A DNA stretch of 46,676 nt from Ignavibacteria bacterium (GTDB lineage: Bacteria; Bacteroidota; Ignavibacteria; Ignavibacteriales; Ignavibacteriaceae), in contig JAUXVN010000041.1 in the NCBI GenBank assembly GCA_030684555.1, forward strand, positions 1 through 46,676. Direction: 5' to 3'. Of this stretch, positions 1 to 5,914 are shown piece after piece; position 1 is the stretch's first letter, and the number at the start of each line of letters is the position of its first letter. The notes beneath the pieces were generated by a model that made no database searches, had not been told where the DNA came from, and saw only the letters and a program-made list of their open reading frames with translations. Position numbers and translations under genes: made by a program.

Positions 1-101
1 CGGGCAAACTCCCGGAAAATAGTAACCTGTCATAACAGGAAAGCGTTAAGCTTATTTTTTCTTTGTATGATTCTGTTAGTATTTTCATGTCCCAAATTTA
101 A
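1..101. other. Left edge, no gene recognised
   Basis: No reading frame here is convincing. Three short stems can be read: CGGG/CCCG near 1-14, CCTGT/ACAGG at 26-39, and AAGC/GCTT at 41-53 followed by a T run at 55-60. The last one could be the terminator of a gene or RNA lying left of the window. An in-frame stop at 99-101 closes the frame of the next feature. Confidence 0.3.
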
Positions 102-446
102 CACTTTTTCCCTTTTTGGTTCTGGCTTGTCCAGGTTGGGACTAAGTCAAATGAATCCCTGAATACCACTATTAAAAAACGTCTATTAGATTCAATCGGG
201 AAAGAAAAGGAAAAAATTTTTCGAGATGGAATTCAAACTCCATTTGAATCAGATAATCCTATTCATGCTGCTCAACATGCAACTGCCACTTGTTGTAAAA
301 AGTGTTTGAACTATTGGTATGATATTCCGATAAATAGAAAACTAACCGATGAAGAACTTGAGTATTTTACAAAGCTTGTCTATCGATATTTAGAAATTAA
401 AAATGATGAACCTGATGAACAGAAGGATTTATTTAATCAAGAATAA
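102..446 (+). pseudogene. DUF4186-family protein, 5'-truncated
   Basis: The open frame runs 114 codons to the stop at 444-446. Its C-terminal two thirds carry the hallmark of DUF4186: a QTP motif, then AQHATATCC, KKCLNYW and a LTDEELEYF helix. No function is established for the family. The frame has a stop at 99-101 and no ATG, GTG or TTG before the conserved core, and the first roughly 40 residues expected of the family (an SxFRxxF-type segment) are absent. Residues before the QTP motif look unrelated, as if a foreign sequence end had been joined on. I read it as a truncated gene, although an unusual start codon cannot be excluded. It ends 14 bases before the radical SAM gene and points the same way, so it was probably the first gene of that operon. 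The Cys/His-rich core could bind metal; this is inference. Confidence 0.6.
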
Positions 447-460
447 GCGCTCGTGGCGAG

Positions 461-1462
461 ATGAATTATATTAATACTGAAAAATTTTCTAAAACACTTC
501 GCGAGAAGGGATATAAAAAAGATTCTGAGGAATTTCTTATAACTAATTTCAAAGATTCTTTGCAAGAAAACGACATCACTAGGGGGGCAAACTGCAACGG
601 GTTCGGCAGGGTTCATCATTTTCGTAGATATTTAACAAATGATTGGCCACAAAATCCACTCCCTATAGATCCTGCATGTCATGCGTTGAATATTCCAAGA
701 ACAGATTTGTTGGAAGTTCAATTGTTTCAGAATTCAATATGTAGTTGGAGATGCTGGTACTGCTTTGTTGATGAAAAGCTTTTAAATGGTGACAAACGAT
801 ATGCTCGATATATGTCTGTCAATGAATTAATTCAATTGTATCTGCATGAGAAAGATTCTCCCAAAGTGATTGATATTTCCGGAGGACAGCCCGATTTAAT
901 ACCGGAATGGACTCTCCATTTCCTAAAAAACCTACAAGAATTGAGGAAAAAAAAACAAATATATATATGGTCAGATGATAATTTGAGCAATGAATATCTT
1001 TGGAAATATTTAACTAAATCAGAACTTAACTACTTATGTTCGGCAGAAAATTATGGCAGAGTTGGCTGCTTTAAAGGATTTGACAAAAACTCATTCTCTT
1101 TTAACACAAGAGCCGAACCTGAACTTTTTAATAAACAATTTAAAATTATGCAAAGGCTTGTTCAAGCGGGGTTTGATGTTTATGGTTATGTAACCCTTAC
1201 AACCAATAATTTAGATAATGTATTCAATCTTGTTAATAGTTTTATTGATAGGTTACAAACCGAAATACATCCGATCTTCCCTCTACGAGTTATCCCTTTG
1301 CAAATTCTCGAATTTTCTCCTACGAAATCCCGGTTAAATGAAATCACAAAATATGCACTAGAAACACAGTATGAAGTCGTTTGTTATTGGCAAGAAATTT
1401 TATCTAAAAGGTTTTCTAAGAAAGAGTTAGAAAATTCCATTCATTTACATAAATTGCACTAA
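461..1462 (+). CDS. Radical SAM domain protein
   Basis: A 333-residue protein with a canonical radical SAM cluster motif, Cys94-X3-Cys98-X2-Cys101 (CSWRCWYC), followed by a SAM-contacting DISGGQP motif about 40 residues later. The family uses a 4Fe-4S cluster and S-adenosylmethionine to make a 5'-deoxyadenosyl radical. Which substrate is attacked here cannot be read from the sequence. The N-terminal 85 residues hold two further cysteines (in the GANCNGFG and DPACHA segments) that could ligate a second cluster or a metal. Two more cysteines lie around 194-205. I see no SPASM-like seven-cysteine tail. A GGCGAG sequence sits just ahead of the ATG. The stop overlaps the next start (TAATG), so translation is probably coupled to the ASCH gene. 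The neighbours (ASCH reader, nucleotide kinase) suggest a nucleotide or nucleic-acid substrate; this is inference. Confidence 0.85.
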   Translation: MNYINTEKFSKTLREKGYKKDSEEFLITNFKDSLQENDITRGANCNGFGRVHHFRRYLTNDWPQNPLPIDPACHALNIPRTDLLEVQLFQNSICSWRCWYCFVDEKLLNGDKRYARYMSVNELIQLYLHEKDSPKVIDISGGQPDLIPEWTLHFLKNLQELRKKKQIYIWSDDNLSNEYLWKYLTKSELNYLCSAENYGRVGCFKGFDKNSFSFNTRAEPELFNKQFKIMQRLVQAGFDVYGYVTLTTNNLDNVFNLVNSFIDRLQTEIHPIFPLRVIPLQILEFSPTKSRLNEITKYALETQYEVVCYWQEILSKRFSKKELENSIHLHKLH

Positions 1463-1947
1463 TGGAAACAAAAATGTTATCAACCAGTTTTAGTCGCATT
1501 TTTTTTAATAATGGGATTGACTTAAATAATAAAACACTCCACCTTGGTGTTTTTATAGAACCATTCCTTACTAAAATACTCATAGGGAAAAAAGTCTGGG
1601 AATCAAGGTTTTCAATTAATAGATGCCCTCCCTACCAACGAGTTAATGATGGAGATATTTTATTGATAAAAAAATCTGGTGGACCAATACTTGGTTATTC
1701 CGAGATTGAGAATGTAATATATTTAGAACTTGACACTCTGTCGTTTGACGACCTGAAGCAGGAATATTCAGAATTGTTATGTATTGAAGATCCATTATTT
1801 TGGGAAACAAAAAGATTAGCATCATATATGACTATCATGAAATTATCAAAATTTCAAAAAATCTCGCCGATTGATATTGTTAAGAGAGATAGAAGAGGGT
1901 GGGTTGTGCTAAAGCCTGAATTAGAACAATTTAAGCTTGCATTTTAG
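1462..1947 (+). CDS. ASCH/PUA-like domain protein
   Basis: A 161-residue soluble protein. Residues 28-70 fit the ASCH fold: a first strand LGVFIEPF, the signature GKKVWESR at 42-49 (family pattern G-x-K-x-x-E-x-R), then a P-P-Y-x-R-V-N-D-G-D-I-L-L turn ending at Gly64-Asp65. A following strand (ILGYSEIENV) matches the next beta element. The C-terminal 60 residues are helical and charged and lie outside the core domain. ASCH domains are related to PUA and EVE/YTH domains and bind RNA or modified nucleotides; some are hydrolases. The start overlaps the stop of the radical SAM gene by one base; a second in-frame ATG at 1474 is an alternative. The kinase gene follows 11 bases downstream. The ligand is unknown. 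Confidence 0.75.
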   Translation: METKMLSTSFSRIFFNNGIDLNNKTLHLGVFIEPFLTKILIGKKVWESRFSINRCPPYQRVNDGDILLIKKSGGPILGYSEIENVIYLELDTLSFDDLKQEYSELLCIEDPLFWETKRLASYMTIMKLSKFQKISPIDIVKRDRRGWVVLKPELEQFKLAF

Positions 1948-1958
1948 AACGATTAGAT

Positions 1959-2486
1959 ATGATTATAGGGATTTCAGGTAGAATTAACAGTGGAAAAACT
2001 ACATTAGCCAAATATTTGAGTAAATCTTTTGAGTGGAAATGTGTTGGTTTTGGTGACTATATTCGATATATAATTAAAGAAAAGAATGTAACTGAAACAC
2101 GAGAAAATTTACAAAAATTTGGACAATCTCTGGTAGATAATCATTTAGATAGTTTTTGTAGAGGTATCCTTAACTTTATTGAATGGGATGGTAAAGAGAA
2201 TCTAATTATTGAAGGAATTCGACATACTTCTGTATTAAATAAAATAAAAGAGCTAAGTGGGGATGAAGAATTTCTTTTTGTCTATATTTCAACATCCAAT
2301 AATCAGTTGATGAGTCGAAAGAATCAACTCTCAACTAAGCAATTAGGTGAAAAATATGAGCAACATAAAATGGAAATAGAGACAATATTTGAGTTGCCAA
2401 AACTTGCAGATGTATTAATTGATGGAGAAAGTAGCATCGAAGAGAGTTTTAAAATTATATCTGTTAGATTAACTTCACATAATTAA
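1959..2486 (+). CDS. P-loop kinase, nucleotide-kinase/dephospho-CoA-kinase-like
   Basis: A 175-residue protein that opens with a Walker A loop at residues 7-15 (GRINSGKTT). Its size and layout match small P-loop kinases: a base- or acceptor-binding helix after FGDYIRY, a short strand LIIEGIRH in the Walker-B-like position, an arginine-containing lid region (MSRKNQL, about 108-114) and a C-terminal AD-VLIDGESS-EE segment that resembles dephospho-CoA and deoxynucleoside monophosphate kinases. It is not CoaE itself as far as I can tell, because the canonical CoaE motifs are weak. It closes the tight operon with the radical SAM and ASCH genes. A role in phosphorylating the product or substrate of the radical SAM enzyme is a reasonable inference but is not shown. 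Confidence 0.7.
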   Translation: MIIGISGRINSGKTTLAKYLSKSFEWKCVGFGDYIRYIIKEKNVTETRENLQKFGQSLVDNHLDSFCRGILNFIEWDGKENLIIEGIRHTSVLNKIKELSGDEEFLFVYISTSNNQLMSRKNQLSTKQLGEKYEQHKMEIETIFELPKLADVLIDGESSIEESFKIISVRLTSHN

Positions 2487-2794: not shown

Positions 2795-3202
2795 ATGAAT
2801 ATGAATATGAATTCTAACACCAAACCAACATTCGAAGAATTACTAAATGAAGCGGAAGAACTTCTCGTCTTTAAAACAAAAGAAGAAAAAACAGGATTTG
2901 ATAAAGATGTTCTTCAACTTGAAATAATGCATGAAGTACAAAAATTAATGGATAATGAAGGGCTTTCGAGAAAAGAATTGGCAGAGAAACTTGGTAAATC
3001 GAAAAGTTTTGTATCTCAACTTTTTAGCTGCGATAAAAAATTGCATTTCGGATTGCTAACGCAATTTCAAGAAATATTTAAAGGCAAATTTAAGTTTTCA
3101 TTTATTCCTTTTTCTGATTACAACCCGAAAATGGTAATAGATGATTACAAGGATGGTTTAGAAGAGCGATGTTCATTTGCTATTACGCAGAAAACAAATT
3201 AA
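2795..3202 (+). CDS. XRE-family helix-turn-helix regulator
   Basis: A 135-residue protein with an HTH_3-type DNA-binding domain at about residues 45-80: the core GLSRKELAEKLGKSKSFVSQLF has the Q/K-rich turn and the recognition helix SKSFVSQLF. The N-terminal 40 residues are acidic and helical (EELLNEAEELLVFKTKEE). They resemble the leader of HigA-like or phage-type antitoxin/regulators. The start has ATG at 2795, 2801 and 2807; the short TAGG before 2795 is a weak ribosome site. No toxin gene lies beside it, so a pure regulator or orphan antitoxin are both possible. It may control the upstream island or the GH2 gene downstream; nothing in the sequence decides this. Confidence 0.75.
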   Translation: MNMNMNSNTKPTFEELLNEAEELLVFKTKEEKTGFDKDVLQLEIMHEVQKLMDNEGLSRKELAEKLGKSKSFVSQLFSCDKKLHFGLLTQFQEIFKGKFKFSFIPFSDYNPKMVIDDYKDGLEERCSFAITQKTN

Positions 3203-3589
3203 TGTGATTTTGACTTAACAAAATCTAACCTAATCAACACTTCAATTTTTCCCTGCAAAGATAAAATATGATTTTGATAGCCTGAAGTTTGTTAATGATC
3301 TACGGAACTAAGATTATCATCACAGCGGGTTTTTAAAATTCAATTTGTAATAATAAGTGGAGAGTGTTTAAAGTCTTCTTCGCTTTAACTTTATTACATT
3401 AATAAATCTACTTATAATTTTAATAAAATCAGGAAGCTGTTTCTGATAACCTGAAGCAAAAATCAACTAAAATCAATTGTTTACGTTATAAATCGTCGTG
3501 GTATTATTTTTGCAGTTATACTCGTGCTAAAAAGCCGGCAATTATCAAAACCTAAAAATTATACAAACATTAATAACGGAAACCAAAGC
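3203..3589 (+). promoter_or_regulatory. Intergenic region before GH2 gene, possible promoter
   Basis: I see no gene here. A Bacteroidota-type -7 element TATTTTTG lies at 3505-3512, with a TTG at 3477-3479 upstream. The 25-base spacing is longer than the usual 19-21, so the match is weak. A short direct repeat, GATAnCCTGAAG, occurs near 3275 and 3443. Confidence 0.25.
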
Positions 3590-5914
3590 ATGAAACAGTT
3601 TTCTTACATCTTTTTGATATTGATTTTTTTCTTAGTTTCAAAAGGAAACTCCCAGGTCGCTTCACTTGAAGCCACATTTCTTACACCAAAAGTCGATGGT
3701 ATTACAGTTCCGTATCAAAACGGAATACCGGTTCCTTCTTTTGAAAAACAGGAAAGAGAAACAATCGATCTTAAAGGGACATGGAAGAAGCAGCGTTTTG
3801 TGGCAAGTGATATAATCACTCTTGCCAAGCGTGATGAAACGGGGTATAATAACCTTGTAAATGAAGCGCAAAACCGTCATCTCCCTTCTTACGATGATGC
3901 AGCATGGCAAACTAAACAAATCCCGGGTGTTGAAAATAATATGAACCCGTTTCCAACAGTTCCTGAATATTACGAGGATGGTGTTTGGTACAGATATAAA
4001 TTTGATGTAGCCGATTTGTTAAATAGTAAATTCATTAAACTGATGTTTTATTCTGTGAATTATGTAGCTGATGTTTGGCTTAACGGAAATTATCTTGGTT
4101 ATCACGAAGGGGGTTATACTCCTTTTGCATTTGATGTTAGCAATAAACTTAATTACGGAACTGAAAATGTAATTGCTGTTAGAGTTGATAACCCCGCATG
4201 GGGCAGCCGCAATGATATTGTCCCTTATACGCGTGTAGATTGGTTTAATTATACGGGAATTATTCATGATGTTTATCTTGAAGTTTCAAATAAAGTTTCG
4301 GTGATTCGGGCAGATGTGGTTCCTTTAACTATTAATGGAGAAATTCAGACAACAGTTACTCTTTACAATAAAAGTGGAAATAGTAAAAATGTTGATGTTC
4401 AAATAGAAATATTTAATGCAGATATAAATGAAGGGAATATTCAGAGTGATAAAGCGTCTTCGTTGATAGGAAATGTTGCAGCATTTAGCGGAACTTCCCA
4501 ATCAACATTAAATGTTTTAAATGATTCGGTAAATGTTTGGCGCACAAATTTAACAGTAGATAATCCTCGTCTTTGGTCGCCTAAATTTCCAAATCTGTAT
4601 ATTATGAAAGTGACTGTTAAAGAGAGCGGAAATGTTATTGATGAATATTATACTCAATTCGGAATTAGGACTATAGAAACTGTAGAAGATAAAGTCTATT
4701 TGAATAATACACCGGTTTTCTTCACCGGAGTAGCCCGACATGAGGATCATCCTGTTTATGGAAGAAGCATTCCAATTAATGTTATCTACGATGATCTTAT
4801 AAAAGTTAAAGATGTAAATGCAAATATGCTTCGTACTGCACACTATCCGAATCATCTTTATACTTATCAAATTGCAGATAGACTTGGAATTGCAATAGTT
4901 GAAGAAATTCCGGTTTGGTGGTTCGATGATCAGATGCCATGGGTGATCCAGAATAGTATTCGCCATATTCATGAACAGATGTTCAAAGAAATGGTCTTTA
5001 AAGATTATAATCGTCCCTCAGTCTTGCTTTGGAGTGCGACTAATGAATGTCTTGATGTTACTAATAGAAAAACATTTATAACTAAAGTTAAGCAGGACAT
5101 TAATTTTAATTATCCGGATGGAAGATTAATTACACAATCAGCCGCAGCAGATAGACCCGGTCCAAATGATCCATCTCAAGCAGCGTGTGATGTTGCCGGT
5201 TGGACGATGTACTTCGGAATATTCCATGGCGGAACTTATTATGATGGAACCCGACGTTTTCTTACAGATGCAAATTATGAATATCCTTTCAAACCTGTGC
5301 TTGATACGGAATTCGGTTATTGGTCTGGTGAACTTAATGCCCCTGGTGGACAATCGGCTCAAGTAACAGTATTTAAGGAAACTTTTTCTGCTTTCACATT
5401 CAGAGCTGCAACGATAAAGCCAAACGGTGCATTTTACGAAGGGGGTTATTTAATGGGAATTACCTGGTGGTGTATTTTCGATTGGTATTCGCATCAACAT
5501 CCGCAGGGATTTCAAAGTATGGGACTTTACCGAATGGGCAGAGATACTGCCAAAACTGTTAGCGATACACTCAAAACTTATTATGCCCCTTATTTCAATC
5601 TTGGTGGTATGCCCACTTCTGTTGAAAATGAAAGTGAACATCTTATTCCCGATGAATATTTAGTAAAACAAAATTATCCAAATCCATTTAATCCGGAAAC
5701 CACGATTGAGTATCAAATTCCATCAACCGGTATGGTTGAGCTTAAAGTGTATAATGTTTTAGGTGAGGAAGTAACTACAGTAGTAAATGAATTCAAAAAT
5801 GCCGGGACGTATAAAGTTAATTTTAATGGAAGTGAATTATCGAGTGGAGTCTACTTTTACGAATTACGAGCGGATAATTTTAAGGAAATTAAAAAACTTA
5901 TTATTCTCAAGTAG
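3590..5914 (+). CDS. Secreted GH2 family glycosidase with T9SS sorting domain
   Basis: A 774-residue protein from the ATG at 3590. The upstream ATG at 3524 would place 22 polar residues before the signal peptide (MKQFSYIFLILIFFLVSKGNSQ), so I prefer 3590. The order is the GH2 sugar-binding jelly roll (about 60-235, WLNGNYLGYHEGGYTPFAFD), an Ig-like domain (235-375) and a TIM barrel (375-660). Barrel motifs include RTAHYPNH, the acid/base Glu486 in SATNE and the nucleophile Glu574 in LDTEFGYW. Family members are beta-galactosidases, beta-glucuronidases, beta-mannosidases and relatives; I cannot tell the substrate. The C-terminal 85 residues are a T9SS type A sorting domain (QNYPNPFNPETTI to KKLIILK), so it should be secreted and probably surface-bound. 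It stands alone, with 397 bases of repeat and promoter sequence before the next gene. Confidence 0.88.
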   Translation: MKQFSYIFLILIFFLVSKGNSQVASLEATFLTPKVDGITVPYQNGIPVPSFEKQERETIDLKGTWKKQRFVASDIITLAKRDETGYNNLVNEAQNRHLPSYDDAAWQTKQIPGVENNMNPFPTVPEYYEDGVWYRYKFDVADLLNSKFIKLMFYSVNYVADVWLNGNYLGYHEGGYTPFAFDVSNKLNYGTENVIAVRVDNPAWGSRNDIVPYTRVDWFNYTGIIHDVYLEVSNKVSVIRADVVPLTINGEIQTTVTLYNKSGNSKNVDVQIEIFNADINEGNIQSDKASSLIGNVAAFSGTSQSTLNVLNDSVNVWRTNLTVDNPRLWSPKFPNLYIMKVTVKESGNVIDEYYTQFGIRTIETVEDKVYLNNTPVFFTGVARHEDHPVYGRSIPINVIYDDLIKVKDVNANMLRTAHYPNHLYTYQIADRLGIAIVEEIPVWWFDDQMPWVIQNSIRHIHEQMFKEMVFKDYNRPSVLLWSATNECLDVTNRKTFITKVKQDINFNYPDGRLITQSAAADRPGPNDPSQAACDVAGWTMYFGIFHGGTYYDGTRRFLTDANYEYPFKPVLDTEFGYWSGELNAPGGQSAQVTVFKETFSAFTFRAATIKPNGAFYEGGYLMGITWWCIFDWYSHQHPQGFQSMGLYRMGRDTAKTVSDTLKTYYAPYFNLGGMPTSVENESEHLIPDEYLVKQNYPNPFNPETTIEYQIPSTGMVELKVYNVLGEEVTTVVNEFKNAGTYKVNFNGSELSSGVYFYELRADNFKEIKKLIILK

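Follow-up and report, generated by a model that had tools for sequence, protein, structure and literature searches.

Several described systems share parts with the genes reported here. Prokaryotic viperins and their partner kinase (pVip/VakA) combine a radical S-adenosylmethionine (radical SAM; rSAM) enzyme with a nucleotide-kinase-like protein and lie in defence islands. According to the available part of PMC7641849, (PIN)-GNAT-EVE operons contain an ASCH protein, often an AAA_17 ATPase, as well as XRE domains, and occur near restriction systems. We analysed a 46,676-nucleotide stretch of an Ignavibacteria bacterium (GCA_030684555.1, JAUXVN010000041.1; hereafter the window), which is a complete contig (C45) of a 4.34 Mb genome in 152 contigs. 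Near its start lie a DUF4186 gene, an rSAM gene, an ASCH gene and a P-loop kinase gene, which the initial annotation had put forward as a candidate nucleotide-modification or defence system. These four genes are the right half of a larger operon, both here and in relatives, and the complete operon of six to seven genes is present in very distant microbes.

The operon resembles pVip/VakA in the pairing of rSAM and kinase and in its location in defence islands, and the kinase of the Nostoc operon matches PADLOC VakA at 5.2e-7. However, it adds DUF4186, ASCH, an XRE-ImmA regulator, DUF6932 or DUF4160 and usually a BpsA-like transferase. The identity of the rSAM as a viperin was rejected (14.8 bits versus the curated NF038283 cut-off of 180; 18.3 bits and E 3.1e-4 for PADLOC pVip), in agreement with the initial remark that its motifs are not those of viperin. 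With the (PIN)-GNAT-EVE operons, as far as described in the available part of PMC7641849, it shares ASCH, an AAA-type ATPase and XRE, while rSAM, DUF4186 and the transferase occupy the place of GNAT, PIN and EVE in the core. The GNAT-EVE fusion was not among the recurrent flank families or the annotated plasmid operons, no direct search with an EVE profile having been made.

Likenesses to other families concern single proteins. The transferase, which most relatives possess, has the BpsA/METTL5 fold, but carries a DPPWY motif and is only about 11% identical to BpsA. DUF6932, in the first slot of the operon, matches PDC-M63A at 1.7e-16, whereas no M63B match was obtained among the other operon proteins scanned; when tested in one native host, the PDC-M63 candidate pair had no defensive effect, according to the available text of PMC12409345. 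PFL activase and QueE have the closest folds to the rSAM, but at 12–13% identity and with no glycyl-radical enzyme identified beside the present rSAM. As for restriction-modification, no nuclease is among the seven conserved genes and restriction genes appear only as neighbours. No system model of PADLOC 2.0.0 matches the whole gene set. In the open literature we found neither a description of the operon, which may have an earlier mention in the source that PMC7641849 cites for ASCH/AAA_17 operons, nor a publication on DUF6932. As far as these limited literature searches reach, the gene set is undescribed.

A conserved operon across phyla

The rSAM sequence of the window alone gave nothing against genome contigs (one genome per species) and IMG/VR, while an alignment of six rSAM sequences against the same genome contigs gave 89 relatives, the best 80 of which were kept, and found none in IMG/VR. 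With rSAM as the sole seed, 87 public loci were obtained. Their usual gene order is [DUF6932 or DUF4160]-XRE/ImmA-DUF4186-rSAM-(BpsA-like transferase)-ASCH-kinase. Across these 87 loci plus the window, our own profiles detected rSAM in 88, DUF4186 in 80, XRE-ImmA in 79, the kinase in 79, ASCH in 76, the transferase in 71 and DUF6932 in 61, and some of the partners are missing because the contigs end there.

A second count was restricted to 62 non-redundant loci in which rSAM is flanked by 4.5 kb or more on each side, leaving out two near-copies (L007 and L008) and the window. Near the rSAM of these loci are the kinase (60), ASCH (58), XRE-ImmA (56), DUF4186 (56) and the transferase (55), while the first slot holds DUF6932 in 43 and DUF4160 in 11, never both together. 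DUF4186, ASCH and the kinase all lie near rSAM in 53 of the 62 loci, from 11 named phyla plus plasmids; one of the 53 is an archaeal (Nitrososphaerota) metagenome-assembled genome, for which a binning error is possible. As a test of its proposal, the initial annotation had asked whether the genes occur within 5 kb of one another in genomes that are not related; this is what was found, and it is not limited to close relatives. The pattern is broken in L077 (a lone rSAM) and L087 (two rSAM open reading frames; ORFs), where no partner was found, and in L021, which is without transferase, ASCH and kinase; in six of the 62 loci XRE and DUF4186 are not nearby. Seven other loci (L020, L023, L039, L041, L054, L059 and L078) share the transferase-less arrangement of the window, in which ASCH and the kinase come immediately after rSAM.

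The genes are also tightly packed, with a gap of at most 20 bases in 63 of 69 DUF4186-rSAM pairs and 63 of 66 ASCH-kinase pairs. In a correlation test of rSAM with its partners (r 0.32–0.57, lowest for the kinase), none of 199 shuffles came up to the observed value for any partner, with host relatedness left uncontrolled. Each of the 19 whole genomes behind the loci has one rSAM copy, and among 296 genomes of the window's phylum the rSAM is present in one, its own.

Plasmids gave a reciprocal result. A tblastn search of 72,556 plasmids with the window rSAM returned seven records (one Rhizobium, four filamentous cyanobacteria and two Roseovarius), all seven of which carry the same gene block. 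Searches of the same plasmids with ASCH and with the kinase each returned exactly these seven records, while the transferase search returned them together with four records without rSAM. From the above, the gene set is a real system and more than a chance association. Its assembly by chance from mobile-island genes with no common function, for which only the orphan cases L077 and L087 speak, is refuted by the fixed order across phyla, the coupled genes and the reciprocal plasmid matches, and we give it next to no credence.

In the two rSAM-less plasmids that were opened, of the four, the transferase relative is followed by a metallophosphoesterase (L108, 3959–6414, Agrobacterium pAt1D132a; L109, 3992–6345, Loktanella). 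The Agrobacterium metallophosphoesterase begins with a PUA-like domain and adjoins a Gabija GajB helicase (8e-181). The DPPWY transferase relative and the metallophosphoesterase are perhaps a second undescribed two-gene system.

Proteins of the operon

The rSAM belongs to the radical SAM superfamily and has its chemistry, as is certain from the partial TIM-barrel fold (AlphaFold2 model, pLDDT 95.9), the motif and a PF04055 match above the cut-off. The CX3CX2C motif does not vary among the 40 relatives that were aligned, and the invariant residues include C94, C98, C101 and C203. By VIA, the nearest solved fold is PFL activase (Z 17.3; 228 residues at 3.1 Å), followed by QueE (13.5), spore photoproduct lyase (13.0), TYW1 (12.9), RlmN (12.9) and viperin (12.0). 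Enzymes that act on nucleotides or RNA (QueE, spore photoproduct lyase, TYW1, RlmN and viperin) are among the neighbours but rank below the activase, and the substrate is not readable from the fold. Searched as single sequences against solved structures, rSAM and ASCH had no match, and profile searches gave weak ones. The rSAM appears to be a previously undescribed family; neither it nor the kinase proved clearly orthologous to an unrelated housekeeping enzyme, the outcome that the initial annotation had named as fatal to its proposal.

The transferase was modelled from an Ignavibacteriota relative (L033; pLDDT 90.2). By fold the model is closest to BpsA (Z 23.1; 290 residues at 3.5 Å), and the next folds are of the METTL5/PH1948 RNA m6A type (Z 16.5–17.4; PH1948 17.4, METTL5 16.6). 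The D, P and W of its DPPWY motif are conserved in at least 90%. No transferase was found by a profile search of the window's genome, which had no positive control. The kinase has a Walker A motif and an AAA_18 match above the cut-off, which place it in the nucleoside-monophosphate (NMP) or dNMP kinase type, and its profile matches the adenylate-kinase-related chains 3lw7 and 3h0k at 1e-14. For the ASCH profile, the best solved match is PH0355 at 0.017. Among 40 ASCH relatives, H27, L36, K44, R49, P57, K141 and W147 are invariant; within the signature, K44 and R49 are present in 40 of 40, and E47 and S48 in about 93%.

Some loci contain additional genes. A Dcd/dUTPase-fold gene (dCTP-deaminase-like; PF22769 at 9.7e-18) lies between DUF4186 and rSAM in L009, L010, L011, L014 and L033, and dCTP-deaminase-like proteins are also near the operon in L026 and L030; judged by eye, they have a hydrophobic C-terminal tail. 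A family annotated as dGTPase in its Nostoc member is located downstream in five cyanobacterial loci, and a DUF763 gene directly follows the kinase in four alphaproteobacterial loci (L002, L069, L072 and L081).

Split copy, mobility and defence neighbourhood

When the window was re-measured, the gene positions, the gaps of 14, -1 and 11 bases and the domains of the four-gene cassette (Table 1) held as first described; the cassette itself proved to be only part of the operon, with its DUF4186 gene split. The DUF4186 frame (102–446) covers only positions 39–109 of the 109 of the Pfam profile. It is absent from the ORF list (at least 60 amino acids; ATG, GTG or TTG starts); the reading is open from 102, but 102–140 belong to a repeat. 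Given the partial coverage and the missing ORF, we take this frame to be the 3' half of a DUF4186 gene that is split.

Table 1. Features of the operon's right half in the window
Feature	Position	Strand	Basis
Repeat end, presumably of a mobile element; splits DUF4186 and breaks the assembly	1..140	.	10 matches in genome; comparison of copies
DUF4186 3' half, zinc-binding-type CC..C core	141..446	+	PF13811 6.2e-20; own profile and alignment
Radical SAM enzyme, 333 aa, apparently its own family	461..1462	+	PF04055 (Radical_SAM) 6.5e-7; motif; AlphaFold2 model
CX3CX2C cluster motif, C94/C98/C101 of rSAM	740..763	+	sequence; invariant
ASCH (PUA-like) protein, 161 aa	1462..1947	+	PF04266 8.6e-4, below cut-off; profile of 40 relatives
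ASCH K-x2-E-S-R signature, residues 44–49	1591..1608	+	conservation among relatives
P-loop kinase, nucleoside-monophosphate-kinase type, 175 aa	1959..2486	+	AAA_18 4.4e-11; 3lw7/3h0k profile matches
Kinase Walker A GRINSGKT	1977..2000	+	sequence; G12 and K13 invariant

The repeat is about 140 bases long, contains two short hairpin-like stretches and begins or ends many contigs. The window copy has nine further matches in the genome (C13, C20, C22, C23, C43, C44, C93, C94 and C97), eight of which lie at contig ends, the ninth being 214 bases away from such an end; the copies are 91–100% alike, and their comparison puts the border between element and host at 140/141. The repeat forms the end of an element spread through this genome. 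A 71-amino-acid reading of the sequence adjoining the repeat had no Pfam match. The look of the repeat had suggested that the contig starts with an integron cassette, a reading that was dropped because the repeat is an element end copied genome-wide.

The 5' half of DUF4186 was found at the end of another contig of the same genome, C62 (positions 2–60 of our profile, against 61–152 for the window half). C62 also encodes the XRE-ImmA regulator (E 1.1e-91 by profile search of the genome) and, upstream of it, DUF6932 (PF22014 at 8.5e-37). The peptidase domain of this regulator scores 20.3 against a Pfam cut-off of 22, which is exceeded in Nostoc and Rhizobium, and its sequence retains the HELYH motif. 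Taken together, C62 and the window give the genome order DUF6932, XRE-ImmA, DUF4186 split by the repeat, rSAM, ASCH and kinase, in which a C62–C45 junction through the element is suggested by the repeat and the complementary profile positions. Since DUF4186 is split, this genome's copy is possibly inactive, and the system may be disabled here. Three genes upstream of DUF6932, C62 carries a DUF4145 protein (L106, 15931–16647) that matches PADLOC PD-T7-4 at 1.1e-17.

In a quick tree, the window rSAM groups with copies from Acidobacteriota, Spirosoma and Hymenobacter in a fully supported set of eight, to which neither of the two Ignavibacteriota copies belongs. In Tolypothrix, the block is inside an 18,401-base insertion in one strain and absent from the sister strain, according to the available part of PMC9679502. 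No match to the rSAM operon was obtained in phage records or IMG/VR, and a prophage origin is not supported on this ground. Thus, of the two settings that the initial annotation had suggested looking for, prophages drop out, while a neighbourhood of defence genes, along with plasmids, is what was found.

An initial PADLOC scan with no control (120 of 492 flanking ORFs, 61 loci) gave 95 families at 1e-15. A controlled scan then compared 100 of 147 flanking ORFs with 100 of 215 control ORFs of 19 loci picked for long contigs; the controls came from 19-kb stretches at other places along these contigs. At E <=1e-20, 80 families were matched in the flanking set versus 5 in the control; these figures count models, not proteins, and one protein may match many. 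Counted by name, there are 13 among the first 25 flanking rows versus 4 in the control, and those 25 rows include Bil, AbiE, type I and II restriction, IetA, PD-T4-6, MADS and CapP. One flanking ORF is the Dcd-like gene inside the L010 operon. The operon sits in defence islands.

Other genes were seen beside the operon. On two cyanobacterial plasmids (L003 and L005), a protein of about 1012 amino acids and then a helicase-like protein come right after the operon, from about 9.6 kb; the former, in L003, had no PADLOC match at 1e-5. In the window, a helix-turn-helix regulator (2795–3202) with weak PADLOC PDC-M64 matches (6.5e-6) is directly 3' of the kinase, and a family 2 glycoside hydrolase that carries a sorting tail for type IX secretion (3524–5914) starts about 1 kb past the operon.

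Possible functions

Our preferred reading, held tentatively and at somewhat less than an even chance, is a horizontally spread, regulated anti-invader (anti-phage or anti-plasmid) operon that changes a nucleotide or a nucleic-acid base. Its parts differ in strength: a role in defence is probable, whereas the case for a nucleotide or base as the target is about evenly balanced. The nucleotide reading draws on the kinase, on companions of the Dcd and dGTPase types and on the PUA-like domains, and a further clue is that members of the transferase family are also seen with a PUA-like/phosphoesterase neighbour adjacent to Gabija.

In such an operon, the XRE/ImmA protein would act as a repressor that is inactivated on DNA damage or infection, for which CapH/CapP-type regulators are the model. 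The rSAM would alter a nucleotide or base by radical chemistry, and in most versions, although not here, the BpsA/METTL5-like transferase would attach a methyl or an aminopropyl group to an amine, as its fold and DPPWY motif suggest. The NMP-kinase-like protein may phosphorylate the product or its precursor, and ASCH may bind or hydrolyse the altered nucleoside, so as to protect or reset the host. The zinc-ribbon protein DUF4186 may be a partner and the slot-1 protein (DUF6932 or DUF4160) a sensor or effector. In a more specific and rather unlikely form, this would be innate immunity of a new class, triggered by DNA damage, in which the rSAM, with help from the transferase and NMP kinase, would make a new modified (deoxy)nucleotide that poisons DNA or RNA synthesis of the invader while ASCH clears the host pools.

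A number of observations weigh against the preferred reading. No part has a known activity, and the core contains no nuclease or clear killer. At least one of DUF4186, ASCH and kinase is absent in 9 of the 62 loci, and the ASCH assignment is weak by Pfam (20.4 bits versus a cut-off of 21.2). PFL activase, the nearest rSAM fold, acts on a protein and scores above the nucleotide- and RNA-acting enzymes, and the top rows of Foldseek are the peptide maturase SuiB (TM 0.39). Moreover, the sole gene of the operon with a PADLOC name, DUF6932, belongs to the pair that lacked defence in the one native-host test described in the available text of PMC12409345.

Modification of nucleic acids is the rival that fares best, although we consider it unlikely. 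Here, rSAM and the DPPWY transferase would modify host DNA or RNA (tRNA, rRNA), ASCH would read the mark, kinase and Dcd would supply precursors, and the mark would label self or alter translation during infection. The BpsA and METTL5/PH1948 RNA m6A-type folds of the transferase with its DPPWY motif, the presence of TYW1, RlmN and spore photoproduct lyase among the rSAM folds, and the PUA-like partner all agree with it. However, the transferase is absent in seven of the 62 loci and in the window's genome, post-synthetic marking needs no nucleotide kinase, and without a nuclease in the core this is not a self-contained restriction system.

Stress response or nucleotide-pool cleaning appears improbable. 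It supposes that XRE-ImmA senses DNA damage, that the enzymes remove or repair damaged nucleotides (compare dUTPase, dGTPase and spore photoproduct lyase), and that the unit is carried along in defence islands, either as a mere passenger or, with DUF6932, in a toxin-antitoxin-like manner. An ImmA/IrrE-type regulator, Dcd-like and dGTPase neighbours and the spore photoproduct lyase fold would suit such a role, but the patchy distribution (one of 296 genomes of the phylum) and the strong enrichment of defence genes in the flanks are unlike a repair pathway.

More doubtful still is peptide or protein modification, with the rSAM as an activase or a maturase like those of ribosomally synthesized and post-translationally modified peptides. 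The top structural neighbours, PFL activase in VIA and SuiB in Foldseek, are what it predicts. Against it, the recurrent neighbour genes include no precursor peptide or glycyl-radical enzyme, though ORFs below 80 amino acids were not clustered and a short precursor could therefore escape notice, and the NCBIfam models of rSAM maturases match far below their cut-offs.

In summary, a core kept together across at least 11 named phyla has had no whole-system model in PADLOC 2.0.0, and the operon provides a context for DUF4186, DUF6932 and an rSAM family that is uncharacterised. As complete operons of about 6 kb exist on sequenced plasmids, the system is directly testable. Should its product be a modified nucleotide, the operon would represent an immune chemistry with an origin separate from that of viperins and might yield new antiviral nucleotides.

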